Positions 22,494 to 32,463 of a stretch of DNA of 64,000 nucleotides are shown in pieces. Both the position numbers and the translations under genes were made by a program. The first letter of the stretch is position 1, and every line of letters starts with the position of its first letter. The notes under the pieces are model-generated. The model had not been told where the DNA came from and made no database searches. It saw only the letters and a list, made by a program, of their open reading frames with translations. Source of the DNA: Flavobacterium flevense (GTDB lineage: Bacteria; Bacteroidota; Bacteroidia; Flavobacteriales; Flavobacteriaceae). The stretch lies in NCBI RefSeq assembly GCF_900142775.1, contig NZ_FRCC01000003.1, forward strand, positions 124,001 through 188,000, read 5' to 3'.

Positions 22494-22796
22494 TTAATCA
22501 TCTTTACCCTTGGTACTCAAATCATGTAGAACCATTGCGGCACTATTTTCGGTGTAAGCATTAAGTCCGGCGACAAAAACGCCTTTTTCGCCTGTTTTTG
22601 ATTCAATTCCAAACACTGTGGCCTCATCACCCGGATCTGACTCTCCTTCATAGCGATAAATATGCTGGATTTCAAAATCATTTGGATTATTTATTATTTT
22701 GGACTCCTGAACATTGAAGTCTACCGTATATCCTTTATTGTTTAATTCCTCTAATGCTTTGCTGACAGTAGCATAATGATACATTTTATTATCCAT
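22494..22796 (-). CDS. conserved small flavobacterial protein
   Basis: 100 residues. [25 protein letters not shown] then [25 protein letters not shown] and [24 protein letters not shown]. Proteins with exactly this pattern are often labelled phosphoribosylpyrophosphate synthetase in databases, but it is far too short for that enzyme and has none of its motifs, so the label should not be trusted. Function unknown; cytoplasmic. Confidence 0.75.
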
Positions 22797-22908
22797 AACT
22801 TTTAGCTTTAAATTGAGTCATAAAGTTACCGGAATCACAGCTTTTTTTTATTACAGAATTATTATGAAGTCTTGTAAAATTTTATGATGAAATAGCGGTT
22901 ATGTCTAG

Positions 22909-23232
22909 TTAATCTACATAGGTTTCCTTCAGAACTTCTTTTACTTTTATAATTTCTTTATCGCTTATATCTCCTAAAACTTTTATTATTCTTTGCCTGT
23001 CAAGACTTCGGATTTGGTCTAAAACAATCCATCCCTTTTTGTCATTGTGGTGTATTTCAACTCTTGTAGGATAGACTTTTGAACTACTAGTCATTGGAGC
23101 AACTACAACTGTTTGTAAATATTTATTCATTTCGTTAGGAGATATAACAACACACGGTCGTGTTTTTTTCATTTCGCTTCCAATAGTGGGATCTAAATTT
23201 ACTAATACGATTTGGTATTGTTTTATGACCAT
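22909..23232 (-). CDS. mazF: MazF-type mRNA interferase toxin
   Basis: 107 residues, standard size. The fold-defining N-terminus QYQIVLVNLDPTIGSEMKKTRPCVVIS (PTIGSE...RPCVVIS is diagnostic) is followed by VVVAPMTSS and GWIVLDQIRSLDRQRI. It would cleave mRNA at short sequence motifs when free of its antitoxin. The ATG overlaps the 3' end of the antitoxin gene by 10 bp, so the pair is translationally coupled. Confidence 0.93.
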   Translation of the reverse strand: MVIKQYQIVLVNLDPTIGSEMKKTRPCVVISPNEMNKYLQTVVVAPMTSSSKVYPTRVEIHHNDKKGWIVLDQIRSLDRQRIIKVLGDISDKEIIKVKEVLKETYVD

Positions 23233-23468
23233 TCTTCAAGATTTTCGTCGTCAAAAACATCATCAATCAACAATTTATCATCTCCGTTTTCGTGCATTTT
23301 TTGGAATGCTTTTTCCCAACCATTTCTAGGTTCTGATTTTGGCTTAAGAATAATATAGCCCTTCTCAAGTATGAGTTCAACCTTATCGGTGATATTATAT
23401 TTCTCAAGTAAAGTTTTCGATAAACGAATTCCTTTTGAGTTGCCTATAGGGATTACTGAAATTTCCAT
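23223..23468 (-). CDS. mazE: MazE-type AbrB-fold antitoxin
   Basis: 81 residues. Residues 1-45 are an AbrB/MazE swapped-hairpin DNA-binding domain (ISVIPIGNSKGIRLSKTLLEKYNI, VELILEKGYIILKP). The acidic C-terminal tail (NGDDKLLIDDVFDDENLEEW) is the part that would wrap the toxin. It precedes mazF in the operon and presumably represses it. Confidence 0.9.
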   Translation of the reverse strand: MEISVIPIGNSKGIRLSKTLLEKYNITDKVELILEKGYIILKPKSEPRNGWEKAFQKMHENGDDKLLIDDVFDDENLEEWS

Positions 23469-23526
23469 TACTACTTTTTTTGTAATTACAAAGTTATCAC
23501 TTTTTTTTAAATTTCTTGATATTTAT

Positions 23527-23700
23527 TTTTTGCTTTTGAAACCGATAGTCTTTTATATTTCTTAATACAGTAATTGCTAATTGGATTTCACACTATGACT
23601 TATTCGCAAGCTTTTCATCCTGACGAAACAAGGATCAATCAGTAGAGTATTTCTATTTGTTCACTGTTGCGGGCACGGATTACAAATCCGCGCTATCGGG
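23527..23700. repeat. R1 repeat, copy 1
   Basis: First of three copies of a segment of about 170 bp (others at 23722-23892 and 26219-26384). Shared blocks are TTTTTGCTT...GATAGTCTTT, TAATTGCTAATTGGATTTCA, CGCAAGCTTTTCATCCTGAC, AAACAAGGATCAATCAGTAG and a terminal palindrome ACGGATTACAAATCCG. The terminal palindrome is of REP type. Confidence 0.85.
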
Positions 23701-23721
23701 GTTGTAAAGTTGTTATTTTTA

Positions 23722-23892
23722 TTTTTGCTTCTAAAACGGATAGTCTTTGATTTAATACAGCAATTGCTAATTGGATTTCAGATTATGACTTACTCGCAAG
23801 CTTTTCATCCTGACGAAACAAGGATCATTCAGTAGAGTATTTCCATTTGCTCACTCATCTTTGCGGGGACGGATTACAAATCCGCTATCGGG
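23722..23892. repeat. R1 repeat, copy 2
   Basis: Second copy, in tandem with the first after a 21-bp spacer and in the same orientation. It ends in ACGGATTACAAATCCG and then GCTATCGGG, 42 bp before the stop codon of the hydrolase gene. Confidence 0.85.
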
Positions 23893-23933
23893 AATCTCCG
23901 CGATTGCGGTTACAGGCTGTTAGCAACTGGCAA

Positions 23934-24902
23934 TTACTGCTCAACTTTCGTCATAAATACTCTAATTTTTTCTATTATTTCTTCTCCATCTTCTTCTAAT
24001 GCAAAATGCCCAGTATCATAAATATTATAGTCGATTTCCTTTACATCTTTTTTGAAAGCAACTGCTCCGCTTTCAGGAAAAAACTCATCATTTTTTCCCC
24101 AAACTATTAATAAAGGCGGTTGATTATCTCTTAAATACTGTTGCCATTTTGGATATAGTTTTAAGTTATTTTGATAGTCGTAAAATAAATCCATATTGAC
24201 TTTATGTGCATTTGGTCTTGAAAGTCTTAAATAATCTAAATTCCAGGTGTCGGGATTTACTGTTTCAACATTTCTTGTTCCGTGTGTGTATTGCCATTTC
24301 AAACCATCTAATGAAAAGGCTGGTAGTATTGCTTTTTCGGTTTCAGGGTTTCGGTCTTTCCAAAGTGCTCTAATTCCAGCCCAAGCGTCGCCCAAACCTT
24401 CTAAATATGCGTTTCCGTTTTGATTTATTATTGCCGTAACCCTTTCTGGGTGTGCTGTAGCTATTCTGAAACCAATAGGTGCTCCATAATCTTGTATCAT
24501 TAATGCATAAGAGTCAATTTTTTTCTTTTCTAGAAAGGCGTCTATTGTTTTTGCAATATTATCAAAAGTATATTCATATTCACTTGCCAACGGAAAATCG
24601 CTATTTCCAAATGAGGGATAATCTGGTGCAATCAAGTGAAAGTCATCAGATAATTGTGATAAAACTTTTCGGTATTGATGTGAAGATGAAGGAAAACCAT
24701 GCAATAGCACTATTGTTGGATTTTTGGGATTTCCTGCCTCTCTGTAAGCAATGTTAATTCCATTAATTTCGATGGTTTTAAATAATGTGGGGTGTTTGTG
24801 TGTCATACTTTTTGATTTATCGGTAGTTTTACTGCTTGTTGCGTTTTTACATCCAAATAATGTGATTAGGATGATAAATTGTAATAGGATAATTTTTTTC
24901 AT
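23934..24902 (-). CDS. alpha/beta hydrolase, dehalogenase/epoxide-hydrolase type, lipoprotein
   Basis: 322 residues. A lipoprotein signal (IILITLFGC, Cys at 18) precedes the hydrolase. LLHGFPSSSHQYRKVL holds the oxyanion His-Gly, DYPSFGNSD is a typical loop, and MIQDYGAPIGFRIA carries the probable nucleophile Asp, as in haloalkane dehalogenases and epoxide hydrolases. LLIVWGKNDEFFP and TGHFALEEDGEEI supply acid and His. It should act on a hydrophobic ester, epoxide or halide in the periplasm or at the cell surface. It is the last gene of a tetR-led operon, 11 bp after the DUF1348 gene. Confidence 0.87.
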   Translation of the reverse strand: MKKIILLQFIILITLFGCKNATSSKTTDKSKSMTHKHPTLFKTIEINGINIAYREAGNPKNPTIVLLHGFPSSSHQYRKVLSQLSDDFHLIAPDYPSFGNSDFPLASEYEYTFDNIAKTIDAFLEKKKIDSYALMIQDYGAPIGFRIATAHPERVTAIINQNGNAYLEGLGDAWAGIRALWKDRNPETEKAILPAFSLDGLKWQYTHGTRNVETVNPDTWNLDYLRLSRPNAHKVNMDLFYDYQNNLKLYPKWQQYLRDNQPPLLIVWGKNDEFFPESGAVAFKKDVKEIDYNIYDTGHFALEEDGEEIIEKIRVFMTKVEQ

Positions 24903-24913
24903 ATTCTGATTGT

Positions 24914-25324
24914 TTATAACCTTCGTTCTGTTTCTTCAATTTTTAAGTCATTGATGCTTGCGAACCTTTTTGTCATTAATCCATTTTCATCAAATTCCCA
25001 GTTTTCGTTTCCGTAAGCTCTATACCATTGACCATTTTTATCCCGATATTCGTACTCAAATCTTACAGCAATACGATTGCCGTTAAATGTCCATAGCTGT
25101 TTTTTAAGCTTATAATCCAGTTCATTTTTCCATTTGTCAGCAAGAAAATCCTGTACTTCTTTTCTTCCGTTGATGAATTGATTTCGATTGCGCCATTCTG
25201 TATCAATCGTATATGCTTCTGAAATTCGAATTGGATCTTTGCTGTTCCAGGCATCTTCTGCCTTTTGAATTTTTTGCATTGCTGTCTCTTCGTTAAAAGG
25301 TGGTAGTGGATGTAATTGTATCAT
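24914..25324 (-). CDS. DUF1348 / NTF2-like (SnoaL-type) protein
   Basis: 136 residues. The pattern [77 protein letters not shown] is the DUF1348 version of the NTF2 cone fold. Such proteins bind small hydrophobic molecules; catalytic activity is not established. It sits between tetR and the hydrolase and has its own copy of the putative TetR operator (25331-25343). Confidence 0.87.
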
Positions 25325-25330
25325 AATTTA

Positions 25331-25343
25331 CCGAACGTTTGTT
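25331..25343 (-). promoter_or_regulatory. second putative TetR operator (O2)
   Basis: CCGAACGTTTGTT, 11 of 13 bases identical to the word in front of tetR (25959-25971). It lies 6 bp before the start codon of the DUF1348 gene, where a bound repressor would block that part of the operon. Confidence 0.55.
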
Positions 25344-25364
25344 AATTTATTAATTCAAATTTTT

Positions 25365-25928
25365 TTACGCTATCGAATAGCGCTTTTCAATATTTTTTAA
25401 TGTGTTTTTAAAAATACTTGTATCAGCTAAGCCTTTTGTTACAATGAGGCTGCCTTGCAATTCAATTAAGGTCTGAACAGCATTTTGCTGAGATTGCGTG
25501 GAAGTTAATTTTAAGGCAATACCCAATGCATTAAAAGCTGTAATCCATTTATCCATACCAGATTTCACCTGTTTCTCAAATAACGACAATCCGCTATGCA
25601 TAGAAAAGGCTCTTAAAACACACGTATTTTTTCCGCTGTCATAAAGAATTTCAATATTTTTCAGCGCATCTTTTAGTCTCAATTCTGTTGGTTTATTTTC
25701 ATCCATTAGGGGAAAGAAAATATGATCATCGACCCACTGATCTATATTGTTCAATACAGATTCTGCCATCTCTTGTTTTCCATTTGGAAATCGATGATAT
25801 AGACTTGCTTTTTTTAATCCGGTTACTTCTGCTAGATCATTTAGGCTCGTTCCTTCATAGCCTTTATCTCTAAAAACTTTGGTAAGTCCGGATATCATAT
25901 CTGTATCTAAAATTTTCTGTGGTCTCAT
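25365..25928 (-). CDS. TetR family repressor
   Basis: 187 residues. The N-terminal helix-turn-helix is clear: LTKVFRDKGYEGTSLNDLAEVTGLKKASLYHRFPNGKQEMAESVL (residues about 15-60). The C-terminal ligand domain has the Cys of NTCVLRAF, as in the AcrR/YxaF group. It probably represses its own operon (tetR-DUF1348-hydrolase) and releases it when the hydrolase substrate or a related compound is present. It is divergent from nothing: all three genes point the same way. Confidence 0.9.
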   Translation of the reverse strand: MRPQKILDTDMISGLTKVFRDKGYEGTSLNDLAEVTGLKKASLYHRFPNGKQEMAESVLNNIDQWVDDHIFFPLMDENKPTELRLKDALKNIEILYDSGKNTCVLRAFSMHSGLSLFEKQVKSGMDKWITAFNALGIALKLTSTQSQQNAVQTLIELQGSLIVTKGLADTSIFKNTLKNIEKRYSIA

Positions 25929-25932
25929 GGTG

Positions 25933-25971
25933 CAAAAATAAGTAAAAATTAGTGATTACCTAACGTTCGTT
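25933..25971 (-). promoter_or_regulatory. tetR promoter with operator O1
   Basis: TATTTTTG (25940-25933) is a perfect -7 element only 5 bp before the tetR ATG. CCTAACGTTCGTT (25959-25971), containing the perfect inverted repeat TAACG-TT-CGTTA, covers the position of the -33 element, as expected for an autorepressor. Confidence 0.6.
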
Positions 25972-26020
25972 AAAATATTTTTTCTTTTCGATTATACACG
26001 TTGTTTGTTTTGCTTGTTGC

Positions 26021-26218
26021 TAACTTGTTTATACCAGCCATAAAATGGCTCCAATCTACCTAATTTTGGCTGGCTTTGTGCCATAAGTAAGCTGACATTT
26101 ATTTAGGTTAATATAGGAAAAATTCTCATAAATCATCAAATGGACTTTTTATTTGTTGCAAACTTTTCGTACTTAAATGAGTAGTTTTTTTATTTTGTAT
26201 ATTTGCGTGAGGGATGGA
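26021..26218 (-). repeat. R2 repeat, copy A
   Basis: About 198 bp, repeated at 30814-31007. Read on the minus strand it runs from TCCATCCCTCACGC through an AT-rich part to an ATG and 21 codons beginning MAQSQPKLGRLEPF, ending with GTTAG at 26024-26020. In this copy the frame continues to a 30-codon orphan peptide and stops. The last 71 bp, including the start codon region, differ at only one base from copy B, whereas the upstream part has many differences. Confidence 0.85.
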
Positions 26219-26384
26219 TTTTGCTTCTAAAACTGATAGTCTTTGATTTAATAGAGCAATTACTAATTGTATTTCACACTATGACTTATTCGCAAGCTTG
26301 TCATCCTCACGAAACAAGGATCAATCAGTAGAGTATTTCTATTTGCTCATCTTTGCGGGCACGGATTACAAATCCGCTATTGGG
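26219..26384. repeat. R1 repeat, copy 3
   Basis: Third copy of R1, directly abutting R2 copy A and ending 9 bp before the stop codon of the DUF695 gene. Together with copy 2 it brackets the tetR-DUF1348-hydrolase operon as direct repeats. Confidence 0.85.
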
Positions 26385-26393
26385 CTTCCTGTG

Positions 26394-27488
26394 TTAGTTT
26401 GGTCTGAACCTTTCAAATGATTGCCAATATTTGTCTTTGTAAAGGTCATAACTCAAATCTAATTTGTCTGAATGTTTCTTTTTCAAATTGTGAAGAAGTT
26501 TTGATGGTTTTCTGAAGTCTTTGCAGGCGAAGTAAACAATTCTTTCACTGTCTGCTGTTTGTCTGCATATGTTCAAATACCCTTCAAAGTCTTTAAGTTC
26601 AGCCATTATTTCGTCTTCAAAGTTATTAAGTTGCTCATAAGTATTATTGTCGGGCATACCATTGTTTTTACTACCGTCAAATTTCATTTCAACTTTTAAT
26701 ATCCAAGGATGAGATGCTTTACTGTCCCAATCAAGTAAAGTTGAATTGATAATTGCAACTAATGGAAGTCCATTCTTAAGTGTCGCTTCTAAACTTGAAT
26801 AACTATCATTCTCTGTGTTGTAACGAACACCATCATATTTTTCTAAAAACTCTTTCTCTCGCCAAATCAAATAGTCTTTCAGTTTCTCAATTGGCATCAA
26901 CTCTTTTTCAGCTTGGTCTTTTGAAATTACAGTTAAATTGTCAATGGTTGTAACAGAATTGAGTTCACCGAGATAATTGTCAAGGAATAGGTATGTCCCA
27001 TTTATAATGGTTGATTTGTCGTCTTCTTTATAATCGTTGTGGGCTAAAACTATGTCAACTTCATCTGGATAATTGTTATGCTCAATGGCGTAAAATGATA
27101 GATTATTACTGTCAAAAGTATAATCTGCCATTTTAATTCCAACATTCTCTATGTCAAGTGCAGGTTTTAATGCAGTAAATTTCCAATTTGGTATTTTTGG
27201 TGCTGAACTCACAAGTTCTTCAACAAAAACAATGTTCTTCAATACTCCATCGGGTGTAAATACCAATTCTGCTGTATTGTCGTCATACATACCTGTCAGG
27301 TAAAAGAAACCGTCTTTTAATTCTTCAAGTTTTGGTGAAAGTTTATTGAAAAAATCCGCTTCAATATTTTTACCTGTCTTTACTACTTTGTAGAAAGTCT
27401 GTTCGTTTGCCGAAAACCAATTCCAAAAGGCTTCATATGACTGAATTTTATCTTCTTTCTTTCCGAATATTTTGTCAAAAAGTCCCAT
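26394..27488 (-). CDS. DUF695-containing protein
   Basis: 364 residues. The C-terminal third (HPWILKVEMKFDGSKNNGMPD, FEDEIMAELKDFEGYLNIC, ERIVYFACKDFRKPSKLLHNL) is a DUF695 domain. The N-terminal part begins MGLFDKIFGKK and has a repeated mixed alpha/beta pattern; SYEAFWNWFSANEQTFYKVV resembles a second DUF-type domain seen fused to DUF695. Function unknown. It is one of the single-gene units of the cassette-like array; no promoter is obvious upstream, only the palindrome at 27524-27672. Confidence 0.75.
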   Translation of the reverse strand: MGLFDKIFGKKEDKIQSYEAFWNWFSANEQTFYKVVKTGKNIEADFFNKLSPKLEELKDGFFYLTGMYDDNTAELVFTPDGVLKNIVFVEELVSSAPKIPNWKFTALKPALDIENVGIKMADYTFDSNNLSFYAIEHNNYPDEVDIVLAHNDYKEDDKSTIINGTYLFLDNYLGELNSVTTIDNLTVISKDQAEKELMPIEKLKDYLIWREKEFLEKYDGVRYNTENDSYSSLEATLKNGLPLVAIINSTLLDWDSKASHPWILKVEMKFDGSKNNGMPDNNTYEQLNNFEDEIMAELKDFEGYLNICRQTADSERIVYFACKDFRKPSKLLHNLKKKHSDKLDLSYDLYKDKYWQSFERFRPN

Positions 27489-27523
27489 TGTGTAATTTCG
27501 TTGTTTTTATGTTTATGTTTTGT

Positions 27524-27672
27524 GTTAGCCTTGCTGACAACGTTCCCAGGGTTTGCGATGTTGCGGATTAAAGAAGCCTAAACTTTCGGTTTAGCAGTGA
27601 CTTCAAAGATATAAAACAAATTATCAATTGAGCCCAAAACCCGCCATTTTGCCAAACGCCAGTTTGCTGATG
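27524..27672. other. attC-like imperfect palindrome 1
   Basis: The whole gap between two single-gene units is one imperfect palindrome. The outer words GTTAGCC/GCTGACAACG lie on one side and GCCAAACGCC/GCTGATG on the other. Inner arms GGGTTTGCGATGTTGCGG and CCGCCATTTTGCC pair with several extrahelical bases. It is 149 bp long. This organisation (long, imperfect, single-strand-foldable, just after a stop codon) recalls integron attC sites. Confidence 0.5.
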
Positions 27673-27675
27673 TTT

Positions 27676-28197
27676 TTATGCAGAACCGTTAACTTGTAAA
27701 TCAAATAAAGTTTCAGATTCCAAGTAATATTTCACATTCCAAAAATGACTACAACCATCAAACCAGACTTGCCAATTCTTTTTCCAATCTCCAAGTTCAT
27801 TGTAGTATTCCTTGTTTGGTTTTTCATGTAAACTAGAACTACTCCAAAGAAAATTAATTATCAAATATTTTTTTCCAGATTCATCTATAAATCCTAAATA
27901 TTGTCTGATGTATTTTTGGAGGTTATTATGTATAACTGGACATTTACCTTTTTGATTCAAGCGCCTTTTATTTATCAGCTTTACTTTATCATGTAATTTT
28001 TTTTCAAATAACAGAATTTCTTCTTTCGTTGGTGTAAATCTATTTTTGTCTTCTAACCAATTGTATGAAGTATTCTTGTAAGAACTTGGAAATATTACGC
28101 CACGAAATTCCTTCCCTTCAATTAGACTAATTGATTGGCCAATCATAATGTTCGAAAACATTAGAAAAAAAATTGTTGTTATCAGAAATCTGTTCAT
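27676..28197 (-). CDS. secreted protein of unknown function
   Basis: 173 residues. MNRFLITTIFFLMFSNIMIGQ is a signal peptide. The mature part has GVIFPSSYKNTSYNWLEDKNRFTPTKEEI, KCPVIHNNLQKYIRQYLGFIDESGKKYLIINFLW, WFDGCSHFWNVKYYLESETLFDLQVNGSA. Two Cys may form a disulfide. I do not recognise the family. The gene fills a cassette-like unit between palindromes at 27524-27672 and 28205-28334. Confidence 0.65.
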   Translation of the reverse strand: MNRFLITTIFFLMFSNIMIGQSISLIEGKEFRGVIFPSSYKNTSYNWLEDKNRFTPTKEEILLFEKKLHDKVKLINKRRLNQKGKCPVIHNNLQKYIRQYLGFIDESGKKYLIINFLWSSSSLHEKPNKEYYNELGDWKKNWQVWFDGCSHFWNVKYYLESETLFDLQVNGSA

Positions 28198-28204
28198 GTA
28201 AAAT

Positions 28205-28334
28205 TGCTACGTCCCCGCGCTACAAGCGGTTTGGGATTAAATAAAGCCTTATTTTCGGATTTGCCAAATCTTCCAAATACAAACCAATTTTTCCATTAAG
28301 ACTATTGCCCAATTGCTTGCAGCGTGTGTTGGCA
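28205..28334. other. attC-like imperfect palindrome 2
   Basis: 130 bp. GCGCTACAAGCGGTTTGGG near 28217 and CCCAATTGCTTGCAGCG near 28308 pair at 14 or more positions with single unpaired bases on one side. The outer ends are TGCTACG and GTTGGCA, the latter close to the integron core GTTRRRY. It begins 7 bp after one start codon and ends 7 bp from the neighbouring stop codon. Confidence 0.55.
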
Positions 28335-28341
28335 GTAGTTC

Positions 28342-29688
28342 TTATATTTTTATATTATGCATTTCTCTATAGGTTTCATCATAATTTTTTTCGGTCATTA
28401 TTCCTGGATAAACTTCGTCAAAACCCATATTGTATGGATATTCTTCTAATAATTTTTTTTTATTTTGAAATATAAAGTTACCGTAGAATTCTATTACTAA
28501 TCTATGATTTCTAATTAGTTTAAATATTCTTTTTTCCAATAGTGATGAATATCTATTTTCAGATTTTGAAGGCTTTGAATGAATAATTTCATCTCGCAAC
28601 GTTTCAAGTTCAATAAACGTAGACCACCATTTTGAAATAGTTACATCTTGTATATCTAATATTTGAGGTAAAATTATTTTGAACTTATCTCGCAAACTAA
28701 AATTACGTTCAATGGCTTGTTTGCCATAAATGGTTTTAACATCATTTTTGTCAACTGTGTATTTATAATTAATTGGTATGCATATGTTAGCGAATGCTTC
28801 TAGTGCGGTATAAGAAAATATAATTGCTTGAATTATTAATTCAAAATAATCAAAATATTCTTTTTGTTCTGCTTCACTTGGAAAAGAACCGTGATAATTT
28901 TTATGTCGCGGTAAAATTATATCTTTGTAAAAGGTTTCTGCTCCTTGTAAATTTTTTTCTGCGATATTTGAATAAATTGAAACATCATTAGGTTGAGCCA
29001 TCATAGTTTCTAAACCATCAAAAACTAAAACCCAATTTGTTTCAAAAACAAAATATTTAAAAATATTGTCTTCATTTACAACAATATGTGGTTTTTTAAT
29101 ACGTGAATCTTTATCATCACGATATTTATCATTTAAATCTTTTGTAATTAATATTAAAGGATCTATAATTTTCCAATCATTTTTTTTAAAGGAAAAAAAG
29201 CGTTGTTTATTTCCTTCGTCAAAAGTTTTGATTATTTGTTTTTCAATGTTTGGAATTAAATTCCTATTAAGTAGAAAAATTAGTTTTAAGGCATTTTCAA
29301 ATGCAAGAATATAATTTTCTCCTAAAAAATTAAATGGAAAATGCAGAATAAAATCTTTGAATTTATATAAAACAGAAATTGAAGAAAATGATTGCATTTG
29401 TTTAATTATTTCATCAGTATTTTTTGAAATAAGTTGAAATATATTTTGAAACTCTTTTAATAGGTTTTTGTAATCTTCAGTTTGACACGCATAATGTTCC
29501 ATTACAAAACTTTGTGAAACTTGAATTTTAAAAAAAGATGAATCACTTACCAATTGTGTTTTCTTTTTTGATTCTTTTTCAAGAATTGTAATACCTATTT
29601 TTATGGAATTATCTAATAATTTTTCGATTAAATATTTTTCAATCAATAATTTCAAACCTGTTTTTTCGATAATTATCTCTATATCCAT
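28342..29688 (-). CDS. large protein with C-terminal HEPN-like domain
   Basis: 448 residues, AT-rich even for this window. The N-terminal 280 residues are helical with no recognised domain. From about 285 the sequence becomes HEPN-like: LIIQAIIFSYTALEAFANICIP, KQAIERNFSLRDKFKIILP, then ETLRDEIIHSK, which is an Rx4H motif with a polar residue after the Arg, as in HEPN ribonucleases. HEPN proteins act in toxin-antitoxin and abortive-infection systems, so a defence role is possible. No partner antitoxin lies in the same unit. Located between palindromes at 28205-28334 and 29743-29878. Confidence 0.6.
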   Translation of the reverse strand: MDIEIIIEKTGLKLLIEKYLIEKLLDNSIKIGITILEKESKKKTQLVSDSSFFKIQVSQSFVMEHYACQTEDYKNLLKEFQNIFQLISKNTDEIIKQMQSFSSISVLYKFKDFILHFPFNFLGENYILAFENALKLIFLLNRNLIPNIEKQIIKTFDEGNKQRFFSFKKNDWKIIDPLILITKDLNDKYRDDKDSRIKKPHIVVNEDNIFKYFVFETNWVLVFDGLETMMAQPNDVSIYSNIAEKNLQGAETFYKDIILPRHKNYHGSFPSEAEQKEYFDYFELIIQAIIFSYTALEAFANICIPINYKYTVDKNDVKTIYGKQAIERNFSLRDKFKIILPQILDIQDVTISKWWSTFIELETLRDEIIHSKPSKSENRYSSLLEKRIFKLIRNHRLVIEFYGNFIFQNKKKLLEEYPYNMGFDEVYPGIMTEKNYDETYREMHNIKI

Positions 29689-29742
29689 TTATGATTGTTT
29701 TATCAAATTTCGTTATATTTTATGATTCTGCTGGCGCATTAT

Positions 29743-29878
29743 TGCCAACGTTTGGCCGCTAAACGAGGTTGCCGATTGAAGCGAGCCGAGATCTCTCTGC
29801 CAAGATAAAACTTTCTTCGTGAAAATGATTATTCAATTTACCGAAATCTCGGCAATTTTGATTTAACGGCGGTTAGGC
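29743..29878. other. attC-like imperfect palindrome 3, with canonical core
   Basis: 136 bp. Read on the minus strand it starts GCCTAAC, which matches the integron inverse core RYYYAAC exactly and contains the stop codon of the upstream gene, and ends GTTGGCA. Inner arms CCGCCGTTAAATC...TTGCCGAGAT and ATCGGCAA...CGTTTAGCGG pair imperfectly with extra bases. Length and design are within what is known for attC sites. Confidence 0.6.
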
Positions 29879-30790
29879 GAATGCTTGTTTAGAAATTTTT
29901 GATAAGAATTGAACAGTATATTTCAATTTATTACTCATTTTCTCAAATCTGTTTTTGCAGCTTTCATGTTTCTTACAAATATTGTTAATCATTACTGCGG
30001 TCATAAGAGTTGAACAAAAAAGTTGAATAAAAATTAGATCGGAATTTTCTTGTTTCGTGTTATTGTATTTTGCAGATTTCATTTGAATAGCACTCAGACC
30101 TTCTGTGTGGGCATATACGGATAATATGTAATATAGTTTAGAGAAGATTGCATTAGAAAAGCCAGAGTCCTTAAAAATAGTATCCCATGTTTTAAAAAGT
30201 TTCCCATTTCCTTTTTCGAGAAGGCTTTTTTGTTGTTTCTCTGAAAGGTTAGTTGAAGGGAAAAGACTTTCCATTTTTTTACGAAGAACATCCATGGCTT
30301 TGATGTCAGCTTCTTTTATTTGTTTTGCTTCTGCGGTGTCAGTGGGCATACTGCTTCTTTGCAATAAAGCTGTATAAATCCATGCATAGTACCGAAGCCA
30401 AAGTTCATTTTCATCTCCAGAATTTATATACAAATGCTGATACATCAATAGTGTTTCGAGTTGTGATCTACCAATAGTCAAAATTGACGCAATATCAACG
30501 AATTTGTTTTTGGCTACAGCACCGTTACCGAAATATTTTGATTGAAAATTGAAACCTTCTGAGATTTTATTTATTGTTAATCCATGAAAATAGAACTTTA
30601 CAATAAGTTCTTCAGAAAGGATAATTGACTCATGGACTTTAACTTTTTCTTCAGCAAGAATTTCATGAAGATAAATTAGAAGGTCAAGCAAATCTTTAAA
30701 ATAGCTTTTTAATTTTTCTTGATCTTTCGAATCGTACAAATTGGAAAGTTCAATTGCCCAGTAATTTTCTTCTGTTAATTCCATCTTCAT
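29873..30790 (-). CDS. helical protein of unknown function, possibly DUF5677-like
   Basis: 305 residues from the Met at 30790. A frame start at 30877 would add 29 residues, but these come from the R2 repeat. The product is helical: LKSYFKDLLDLLIYLHEILAEE, KFVDIASILTIGRSQLETLLMYQHLY, LWLRYYAWIYTALLQRSSMP, FSKLYYILSVYAHTEGLS. The Tyr/His helix near the end resembles DUF5677/HEPN-like families, but I cannot be sure. First unit of the cassette-like array; the junction with R2 is at the core-like GTTAGGC (minus, 30817-30811). Confidence 0.6.
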   Translation of the reverse strand: MKMELTEENYWAIELSNLYDSKDQEKLKSYFKDLLDLLIYLHEILAEEKVKVHESIILSEELIVKFYFHGLTINKISEGFNFQSKYFGNGAVAKNKFVDIASILTIGRSQLETLLMYQHLYINSGDENELWLRYYAWIYTALLQRSSMPTDTAEAKQIKEADIKAMDVLRKKMESLFPSTNLSEKQQKSLLEKGNGKLFKTWDTIFKDSGFSNAIFSKLYYILSVYAHTEGLSAIQMKSAKYNNTKQENSDLIFIQLFCSTLMTAVMINNICKKHESCKNRFEKMSNKLKYTVQFLSKISKQAFA

Positions 30791-30813
30791 GTTTTTGCGG
30801 TGAAGCTTTCGCC

Positions 30814-31007
30814 TAACTTGTTTATACCAGCCATAAAATGGCTCCAATCTACCTAATTTTGGCTGGCTTTGTGCCATTAGTAAGCTGATATTTATTTAGG
30901 CTAATATAGGAAAAATTCTCATAAATCATTAAATGAACTTTTATTTGTTGCAAACTTTTCGTACTTAAATGCGTAGTTTTATTCTGTGCGTTTGCGTGAG
31001 GGATGGA
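30814..31007 (-). repeat. R2 repeat, copy B
   Basis: Second copy of R2 (first at 26021-26218). Here its small frame MAQSQPKLGRLEPF... stays open across the boundary and fuses in frame to the 305-residue protein, adding 29 residues. The boundary is GTTAGGC, an exact match to the integron core GTTRRRY. Confidence 0.85.
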
Positions 31008-31113
31008 AGAGGAGCTCTCCCGATTTTTTATCGGGAAGCGGGAACGTACAGCCCGACCTCGTTGCTAAACAAAATTTCGAGTATTAAGTAAACGTTCTGC
31101 AACGAGGGCACGC
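30990..31113. repeat. structured palindromic element next to thrC
   Basis: Three nested stems are readable: ends GCGTG and CACGC, an inner CTCCCGAT/ATCGGGAAG hairpin, and CCTCGTTGC/GCAACGAGG. The first part overlaps R2 copy B (GCGTGAGGGATGGA). The layout resembles a dispersed flavobacterial repeat. It marks the border between accessory DNA and the threonine operon. Confidence 0.6.
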
Positions 31114-31120
31114 CATAAAA

Positions 31121-31154
31121 AAAAAAACGGCTAAAGATTACTCCATAGCCGTTT
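31121..31154 (-). terminator. terminator of the thr operon
   Basis: AAACGGCTA and TAGCCGTTT pair around a 13-base loop; the minus strand continues with ten T. It is 20 bp past the thrC stop codon. Confidence 0.85.
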
Positions 31155-31173
31155 GTATATTATGTTTGAAAGT

Positions 31174-32463
31174 CTATCCTAAAAATGCTTTCAATTCGTC
31201 ATAAGTCTTGATTTTAGTACTTACTTTTTCTTTGTTTAGTACGCTTTCAATTTGCGTAGGAATTGGTAATTGTAGGTTTAAAGCGGGTTCTACAACGTCT
31301 AAAAACTTGATAGGATGAGCGGTTTCTAAGAAAACCCCAATAGCATTTGGGTAGTTTTCCAGTTCTTTTTTCAAACCTAAATAACCTACTGCTCCGTGTG
31401 GCTCAGCAATATAACCGTCAGTGTTGTAAATGGTTTTCATGGCTGCCAAGGTTTCTTCGTCATTATAGGTATAAGAAGAAAAATCCTTTTTAAACTGAGC
31501 CAAATCGTTTCCGTACATTTCCTGAATACGGATAAAGTTACTTGGATTTCCTACGTCCATTGCGTTTGAAATGGTTGCAATAGATGGTTTTGGATCATAA
31601 TTTCCATTGACTAAAAATCTCGGCACGGTATCATTTACATTTGTAGCTGCAACAAAATGCTTCACCGGTAATCCCATTTTTTTAGCGATGATTCCGGCAC
31701 AGATGTTTCCGAAATTTCCACTAGGACAAGAGAAAACCAATTCTTTATTTTGAGATTTCAATGCTTTGTAAGCAAAGAAGAAATAAAACATTTGTGGCAA
31801 CCAGCGGGCAATATTAATGGAGTTAGCCGAAGTCAGGTTTTTGTGTTTCAGACTTTCGTCTAAAAATGCTTTCTTCACCATATCCTGGCAATCGTCAAAA
31901 ACACCGTCAACTTCCAGCGCTTTGATGTTTTGCCCTAACGTAGTTAATTGTCTTTCCTGAATGTCGCTCACTTTTCCCGAAGGATAAAGAATAACGACTT
32001 CAACACCCTGAACAGCCAGGAATCCGCTTGCTACAGCACCTCCTGTGTCTCCGGAAGTTGCTACCAGAACCGTATTGGTATTGTCTTTTTTGTCTTTGTT
32101 AAAATAACCCAGACAACGGGACATAAAACGCGCTCCAACATCCTTAAACGCCATCGTAGGACCGTGGAATAATTCCAGAGAATAGATTCCGTTTTCTACA
32201 GGAACCACAGGAAAATCAAAACATAAGGTTTCGGAAATGATTTGTTTTAGGGTTTCTGCCGGAATTTCGTCACCTACAAATTGCTGAATCGCTTCAAAAG
32301 CAATTTCTTCGTGGCTTAAATTCTCAATGTTGTCAAAAAAAGATTGCGGAAGCGGTGTAATACTTTCCGGAAAATACAATCCTTTATCGGCTGCTAATCC
32401 CTGAATTACGGCTTCCTGAAAAGAAACTTTTGGTGCGTTATGGTTTAAACTGTAGTATTTCAT
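31174..32463 (-). CDS. thrC: threonine synthase
   Basis: 429 residues. LELFHGPTMAFKDVGARFMSR contains the PLP lysine, and VATSGDTGGAVASGF and FSCPSGNFGNICAG are the phosphate and cofactor-binding loops. It converts O-phosphohomoserine to threonine. Last gene of the operon thrA-thrB-thrC. The gap to thrB (117 bp) contains a type A repeat. Confidence 0.95.
   Translation of the reverse strand: MKYYSLNHNAPKVSFQEAVIQGLAADKGLYFPESITPLPQSFFDNIENLSHEEIAFEAIQQFVGDEIPAETLKQIISETLCFDFPVVPVENGIYSLELFHGPTMAFKDVGARFMSRCLGYFNKDKKDNTNTVLVATSGDTGGAVASGFLAVQGVEVVILYPSGKVSDIQERQLTTLGQNIKALEVDGVFDDCQDMVKKAFLDESLKHKNLTSANSINIARWLPQMFYFFFAYKALKSQNKELVFSCPSGNFGNICAGIIAKKMGLPVKHFVAATNVNDTVPRFLVNGNYDPKPSIATISNAMDVGNPSNFIRIQEMYGNDLAQFKKDFSSYTYNDEETLAAMKTIYNTDGYIAEPHGAVGYLGLKKELENYPNAIGVFLETAHPIKFLDVVEPALNLQLPIPTQIESVLNKEKVSTKIKTYDELKAFLG

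Follow-up and report, generated by a model that had tools for sequence, protein, structure and literature searches.

Integrons of the Vibrio type are described as having R'' and R' boxes that match over 9-11 nt (PMC2727003) and cassette rows in the hundreds, with 179 cassettes in V. cholerae and up to 301 in V. vulnificus (PMC11023631); for Treponema, an account of its integrons states that the integrase gene is read towards attI and the cassettes (PMC3607928). Integron integrases have been collected via the additional domain of IntI (PMC2426708, PMC9668308), which is also used by IntegronFinder (PMC9668308), and the paper on IntegronFinder 2.0 reports few integrons in Bacteroidetes: In0 elements, from earlier work, and a single complete one, that of Salinibacter ruber (PMC9024848). 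Here we consider a 64,000-nt stretch of the 4.23 Mb genome of Flavobacterium flevense (G000:C17:124001-188000, hereafter the window), where the region between mazEF (22909-23468) and thrC (31174-32463) is, with a probability of about 0.93, occupied by two short cassette rows of the integron type, the Xer-like integrase being encoded elsewhere in the genome. In its predicted architecture the system is an integron, with another type of integrase and with many attI sites per genome.

All genes between mazEF and thrC lie on the minus strand, the initial annotation of this region having stated that they point the same way. Read from thrC, they are arranged as a repeat motif, the end codons of an integrase gene, a leader, cassettes A-D and a dispersed repeat, followed by a second integrase remnant, a second leader, cassette E and two more copies of the repeat. 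The initial annotation had described this as one cassette array without integrase and with its own leader repeat, R2. The array and the leader, an attI, are retained, the array being in fact two leader-headed rows (R2 copy B with units A-D, and R2 copy A with unit E, which has three genes), and the lack of an integrase is true of the window, beside whose rows the end codons alone were met, the full gene being present on C14 of the same genome.

The three gaps between the genes are filled with palindromes, as had been noticed before, and by their layout these are attC sites. All three are found with a covariance model for which 37 attC from outside the window were used, one of them from the C14 integron of the same genome (Table 1). 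The inner stem of the model comprises 17 pairs, 16 of them with compensatory double changes, and 92.2% of cells are paired, compared to 58% in shuffled and 33-45% in slid alignments, with none of 500 shuffles as high on both measures; these shuffles, and those used for attI below, ignore kinship. A scan of 84,980 species yielded at least 562 relatives of the integrase, and the best 80 of these constitute the named loci, whose figures do not describe more distant relatives. The 80 named loci contain 112 attC, and 109 of these, spread over 42 loci, share the strand of the integrase gene and lie behind it. Palindromes of the attC type adjoin unrelated genes in many genomes, the opposite of what the initial annotation had named as refuting.

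As the first bases of an integron cassette belong to its own attC, the start of a cassette is expected to be reverse-complementary to the R'' box of that cassette and not of another. This rule, which we regard as decisive, was checked at three scales. In the genus, 16 of 27 first cassettes (24 from other genomes, one from the C14 integron and two from the window; attI sites that are repeated or have less than 900 nt behind them were left out) match their own R'' in ten positions of ten, and 22 in at least nine, compared to 7 and 51, respectively, of 702 mismatched pairings. Of first cassettes in the named loci, 45 of 52 match at the level of 9/10 or better, as opposed to 179 of 2634 mismatched pairings; the 52 are what is left of the 80 loci after the exclusion of three where the match stops short of the integrase end, five in which no core was called, and 20 of the remaining 72 with less than 800 nt past the core. 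In the long array of genome G072, described below, the rule is obeyed at the same level by 221 of 228 cassettes (four of 254 attC, in which AAC or GTT is not clear, were dropped, as were 21 of 249 neighbours that fell outside 200-4500 nt), with 18 of 228 for random partners and 25 of 228 for the previous attC. In the window, the rule is kept by cassettes A, B and E, and fails for C and D. The complementarity of GCCTAAC and GTTAGGC at the ends of the first unit, pointed out in the initial annotation, is real and extends further, the start of unit A agreeing with its own R'' in 14 of 15 bases.

Folding each window palindrome alone, as had been proposed, gives z from -1.7 to +0.2 on both strands, which is unremarkable, because the R' partner sits at the other end of the unit. 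When the own start is joined, as it would be in an excised circle, the folds of attC A and B surpass the average of 50 shuffles, unlike that of C.

Both copies of the leader repeat R2 were confirmed (Table 1). A search in 199 Flavobacterium genomes (own included) gave R2 matches in 56, and many of these matches begin in the middle of the repeat and end at the same GTT core, with different sequence starting immediately after it. In relatives, a tyrosine recombinase gene ends in the 5' part of R2, and the leader follows directly; intact integrases of relatives end like THVSTKSLQQIKSPFDDL, directly before their own attI. A model of attI, based on 45 leaders adjoining integrases in named contigs and none from the own genome, recovers both window copies, as well as the attI on C14 and that of a Chryseobacterium plasmid. 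Of 77 named loci with an integrase gene, 72 have a called attI core next to it, a few of these calls (e.g., L162) looking doubtful. Moreover, the motif TTGCGTGAGGGAT, found 84-88 nt before the integrase start in four relatives (L006, L085, L107, L110), is present in R2 in the same orientation, before the integrase remnant, so that R2 has the left repeat, the end codons of the integrase and attI in the succession seen in intact relatives. Given this arrangement, R2 looks like a complete integron head from which the interior of the integrase gene has been deleted. The same motif also precedes an orphan attI (L032) and, in another case, lies at the distal end of a row (L188). Bases before attI, just upstream of it in the case of attI-B, resemble a promoter.

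The attI stem sequence varies freely, yet stays matched in four places, and the leader alignment has a four-fold repeated stem between the integrase end and the first cassette. Two mutually exclusive foldings covary, the fractions of paired cells being 84.6% and 83.8% and the covariation 0.68 and 0.67; none of 500 shuffles is as high on pairing and covariation, and pairs with a double change are not above shuffles (363 and 379 of 500). No match was found between the stem sequence and the N-terminal part of the integrase (rho 0.04, p 0.33, 38 loci), and that with the rest of the protein is weak (rho 0.13). In attI, structure seems to be kept rather than sequence. We infer a role of the leader RNA, in which the two foldings may switch or insulate the expression of cassettes.

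The own genome encodes one integrase of this type at E 1e-80 (C14:277882-278922, 347 residues), followed by the attI identified with the model and by about four same-strand cassettes which, by eye, keep the start rule; three of them carry attC according to the attC model. In its arrangement, this locus is a complete integron of the same type. Sequence comparisons assign the enzyme to a Xer-like lineage, not to IntI. Its matches in PDB are XerA/XerC-like proteins 5hxy and 4a8e (E 5.7e-37 and 8.2e-37; XerA and archaeal Xer nearest), and IntI4 is matched at E 5.7e-30 in two pieces, as 58 IntI4 residues (186-243) stand opposite 16 residues of the C14 integrase (255-270), XerA being aligned without such a gap. 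The IntI-specific additional domain near patch III is not present in the C14 integrase, about positions 181-238 of TIGR02249 are unmatched, and among NCBIfam models the XerA-type one scores 213.4 of 220 bits and the one for integron integrases 197.6 of 265. The integrase is outside the IntI clade in a tree of 41 rows: 21 Bacteroidota enzymes and 12 IntI form two groups, supported at 100/99 each against the other, the forks joining the two groups to other rows being weaker (81-94). The AlphaFold model of a relative (L104; predicted local distance difference test 84.5, predicted template modelling score 0.51; residues 68-331 used in the structure search) is nearest to the Xer structure 4a8e (Z 24.4, root-mean-square deviation 14.1 over 251 residues), followed by XerA, 5hxy (20.7, 16.6 over 243), and IntI4, 2a3v (18.9, 14.4 over 253). 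About 65 further N-terminal residues of the family lie outside the Xer matches, and all tyrosine recombinases in phage records have less than 60% identity to the integrase. The integrase gene and the cassettes share orientation. The initial annotation had left a choice between diverged attC sites and a separate recombination system, and each half of it captures a part: the layout is that of attC, and the recombinase is Xer-like rather than IntI.

The search for a tyrosine recombinase in related genomes, suggested earlier, identified this integrase at E <=1e-80 in 83 of 199 Flavobacterium genomes, 78 of them with a single copy, while IntI above the cut-off was found in none of the 199. Classical IntI is above the cut-off in 70 of 247 Bacteroidota genomes, one of 61 in the own class and 69 of 186 in other classes. 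The best 80 loci include Flavobacterium (F. psychrophilum among them), Chryseobacterium, Chitinophaga, Algoriphagus, Pelobium, Lutibacter, Saprospiraceae, Bacteroidales, an Ignavibacteria bin and a bin with the title Azoarcus, the single proteobacterial title among them (L160). The largest row, of superintegron size, is that of G072 (C1:3074323-3253178, a one-contig Flavobacterium genome), whose integrase is 40% identical to that of C14; 254 attC extend over about 177 kb on one strand behind the integrase, with no attC in the next 140 kb fetched; the longest open reading frame (ORF) is on the strand of the row in 212 of 249 cassettes and on the opposite strand in two. G118 (C1; L086 1340-19630) has at least 28 attC behind an integrase and attI in the 19.9 kb fetched, reaching the end of the stretch. 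A Chryseobacterium plasmid (NZ_CP041688.1; L102 12001-22122) carries an integrase of this family, attI and five attC, and an IS110 transposase and a group II intron are seen among its cassettes. A contig of Flavobacterium psychrophilum (L128) has an integrase, attI and two attC.

Several units are common to different genomes. Window cassette C and the G118 cassette that is tenth when attC are counted are 94% identical in DNA over 556 of 670 bases; the likeness stops at the R'' box and the attC bodies differ, and the thrC products of the two genomes are 79% identical. The protein of cassette C is also 37% identical to that of cassette 1 of the own C14 integron. G050 and G024 have a common cassette (94.9%), whose identity starts and stops at GTT cores, being 40% and 45% outside the borders and 100% and 95% inside, and in G167 and G198 a stretch of 1547 bases ending at a core is common at 99.9%. 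In total, shared units are observed in three genome pairs, plus a fourth at 79% identity, with exact borders at both ends in one pair. Identity to named Flavobacterium contigs is also seen for cassettes of two congeners (L093 to L109, L092 to L124).

The position behind thrC was compared in relatives. In five of 14, an attI-like site lies within about 450 nt behind thrC, on the 3' side (G024, E 2.1e-8; G111, 9.4e-6; G006, 0.0026; G112, 0.0036; G093, 0.049; some of these are weak; loci L188, L190, L192, L193 and L194). It is followed by attC in two relatives, two sites in G024 and one in G093, and the sequence read behind it in G024 and G112 contains genes other than those of the window. Hence, the place behind thrC is kept while the cargo differs where it was read, the opposite of the fixed gene order that the initial annotation had named as an argument against exchange. 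In G050, the closest by thrC (96% amino acid identity) of 20 genomes asked, no attI or attC was found in about 15.9 kb behind thrC.

The number of attI per genome is high. At E <=1e-4, the own genome has 15 attI, and 27 of 41 Flavobacterium genomes (own included) have such sites, up to 16, a few of these counts including antisense matches of one site. For eight of nine orphan attI (eight from the own genome and one from G024), the nearest ORF is co-directional and lies 30-402 nt upstream. Three orphan attI of the own genome (L034 before 9913, L234 before 4950, and L235) share an upstream sequence, 73-76% identical over about 90 bases and not integrase-like, and one more, in L231, has integrase-like end codons upstream (QIKSSFDSL-stop).

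Table 1. Features of the two cassette rows between mazEF and thrC, in the minus-strand order from thrC.
Feature	Position	Strand	Basis and remarks
Repeat motif TTGCGTGAGGGAT	30992-31004 (read 31004-30992)	minus	17 nt before integrase remnant, as after internal deletion
R2 copy B	30813-31007	minus	repeat search
Integrase 3'-end remnant, THLSTKSLQQIK, then frame broken	30939-30974	minus	translation
attI-B, 3' part of R2 copy B, 88 bases	30815-30902	minus	core GTT 30817-30815; attI model, E 1.3e-10
Cassette A	29750-30817	minus	ORF 29873-30790, 305 aa, no family
Start of cassette A, GTTAGGCGAA		minus	reverse complement of own R'' TTCGCCTAAC, 10/10
attC of cassette A	29747-29881	minus	attC model, E 2.3e-12
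Cassette B	28211-29749	minus	ORF 28342-29688, 448 aa, no family over cut-off
Start of cassette B, GTTGGCAATA		minus	compared with R'' TACTGCCAAC at 28337-28328, 9/10, read from sequence
attC of cassette B	28208-28337	minus	attC model, E 5.9e-16; next core damaged (GTA)
Cassette C	27542-28210	minus	ORF 27676-28197, 173 aa
attC of cassette C, decayed	27539-27671	minus	attC model, E 6.3e-10; R'' mismatches own start; does not fold
Cassette D	26385-27541	minus	ORF 26394-27488, 364 aa, DUF695 at C end; core GTT at 27541
Dispersed repeat (R1 type of the initial annotation) ending row B	26219-26384	minus	repeat families D1, D4
R2 copy A	26020-26218	minus	repeat search
Second window copy of repeat motif TTGCGTGAGGGAT	26203-26215		by R2 copy A
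Integrase C-terminal remnant THLSTKSLQQIKSPFDDL and stop, in frame	26126-26182	minus	translation
attI-A (R2 copy A)	26022-26109	minus	core 26024-26022; attI model, E 8.1e-10
Cassette E	23919-26024	minus	start GTTAGCAACA compared with R'' (23929-23919), 9/10
TetR-type regulator, cassette E	25365-25928	minus	Pfam
DUF1348 protein, cassette E	24914-25324	minus	Pfam
Alpha/beta hydrolase, cassette E	23934-24902	minus	Pfam
Two copies of the same dispersed repeat	23533-23892	minus	D1, D4; where attC of cassette E should continue

In NCBIfam, nothing is above the cut-off for the four proteins of cassettes A-D, and none of them matches defence families of PADLOC at E 0.01, so the suggestion of possible defence genes in the cargo was not borne out; a porin identity of protein B was dropped, the match being below the cut-off. 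The gene of cassette A has one further match in 199 genus genomes, with 21% identity, and that of cassette C is found in 15 of the 199, lying among attC at four of 16 places. The dispersed repeat occupies the position of the last attC in each row, and a sequence similar to it is also present near thrC in G050 (L184 12740-12845).

Read from the sequence as they are, the att sites, the borders of units, the own integrase, the units common to several species and the covarying stems suggest the following scheme. Each row would start at an attI that carries the last codons of the integrase gene, the remainder of the gene having been deleted, and its cassettes would have attC sites of ~130 bp after the genes. 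A tyrosine recombinase would insert cassettes at the GTT core of attI or of an attC, presumably by joining double-stranded attI to the folded single (bottom) strand of attC, and cassettes would be excised as circles, in which the cassette start pairs with its own R'' box. This role may be played by the Xer-like enzyme of 347 residues lacking the IntI-specific domain, encoded once, on C14, before an intact attI and about four cassettes; it would then act in trans on attI of the window, and the rows would be transcribed from the leader.

Some observations weigh against this explanation. In attC, further pair types are no commoner than in shuffles (216 of 500), and 5 of 27 first cassettes in the genus and 7 of 52 in the named loci fail the start rule. 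In silico folding with DNA parameters favours the scheme where the real start is joined, the bottom strand being the more stable one in 38 of 42 attC, with the same sign for attC A and B of the window and not for C; but the 42 were picked by the start rule and the inner match from 54 candidates (12 dropped), and without the own start the bottom strand is better in only 27 of them (p 0.02). The attI of C14 and those of the window differ in the stem sequence, the attI of G072 was seen by eye only, being missed by the model, and for the window we found no empty site defined to the base. Many attI may be relics, as 14 of 27 attI-bearing genomes show no integrase at E 1e-80, a limit that leaves out more distant enzymes, the one of G072 among them. 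Whether the rows of the window themselves are dead relics, with the integrase part gone, the att sites decaying and the rows retained only for their genes, is in our view an evenly balanced question. In unit C the core is damaged (GTA) and R'' mismatches the start of the unit, no R'' or attC was seen behind the gene of cassette D, where the dispersed repeat comes next, the attC of cassette E is cut, the dispersed repeat standing at the place of its continuation, and of the integrase the end codons alone remain in the window; on the other side stand both attI and attC A and B, which fit the models, the start rule kept by three cassettes, and the intact integrase of the same family in the genome. 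As the rows are partly decayed, their present activity is doubtful.

Explanations not involving this recombinase fare worse than the integron-type one. We give almost no credence to the possibility that the palindromes are ordinary dispersed repeats or terminators, similar to repetitive extragenic palindromes, between co-directional genes of fixed order that do not recombine. It would account for single palindromes folding no better than shuffles and for other dispersed repeats present in the same gaps, but it is contradicted by the start rule holding at three scales, shared units bordered at GTT, the strand bias of attC behind the integrase gene, and no match in an Rfam scan of 22500-31500 at E 0.5. 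Insertion of the cassettes at secondary sites by a classical IntI since lost is hardly credible: such enzymes do occur in the phylum at the frequency given above, but they are absent or nearly so from the genus and the class, and the integrase codons present in the leader are those of the other family. R2 might also be a small transposon-like element (miniature inverted-repeat transposable element) with a promoter, the palindromes coming from another element. This is very unlikely; R2-type sites are indeed present at many places, often behind unrelated co-directional genes, and 16 of 21 copies examined have no integrase in the upstream stretch, but the other five are directly behind intact integrases, and the sites end at the core where cassettes begin, as called in most named integrase loci.

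We retain the interpretation of the region as two cassette rows, which may be served from C14. A broader claim, which we consider possible and rather less probable than its negation, is that Bacteroidota have a class of integrons with a Xer-derived integrase apart from IntI, so that single-strand attC recombination would have arisen twice or would proceed without the IntI domain, and that in Flavobacterium one integrase might serve up to fifteen chromosomal attI, each with a structured leader, the two mutually exclusive foldings of which covary and may switch or insulate the expression of cassettes. If the enzyme does the same job without the IntI domain, this domain is not what enables recombination of single-strand attC, and its role could be studied with natural enzymes. 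The known pool of mobile genes would also grow considerably with such integrons, given 254 attC in about 177 kb of one genome, at least 28 attC in another and a row on a plasmid. We infer that the filter based on the IntI domain is the reason why they have been missed so far. In the open literature, searched in full text, no retrieved paper concerns such integrons in Flavobacterium, judging by title and the beginning of the abstract; subscription journals and preprints were outside this scope, and a prior description is possible.

Compared to described systems, the rows resemble the sedentary IntI integrons of Vibrio in having a tyrosine recombinase gene, attI, GTT/AAC cores, and mostly one-gene, one-strand cassettes with attC. 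On the contrary, the integrase described here is without the IntI-specific domain and belongs to a separate group, many attI are present per genome, and the integrase gene points towards the cassettes. The latter orientation is the same as in Treponema integrons, which differ in the host phylum and in enzymes named intI. Similarly to CALIN and In0 elements of IntegronFinder, the window rows are attC clusters without an adjoining integrase, but they keep attI. Finally, the nearest solved relatives of the enzyme in both sequence and fold are XerA/XerC-like (5hxy, 4a8e), from which this family is distinguished by the additional N-terminal residues and by its position adjoining attI.

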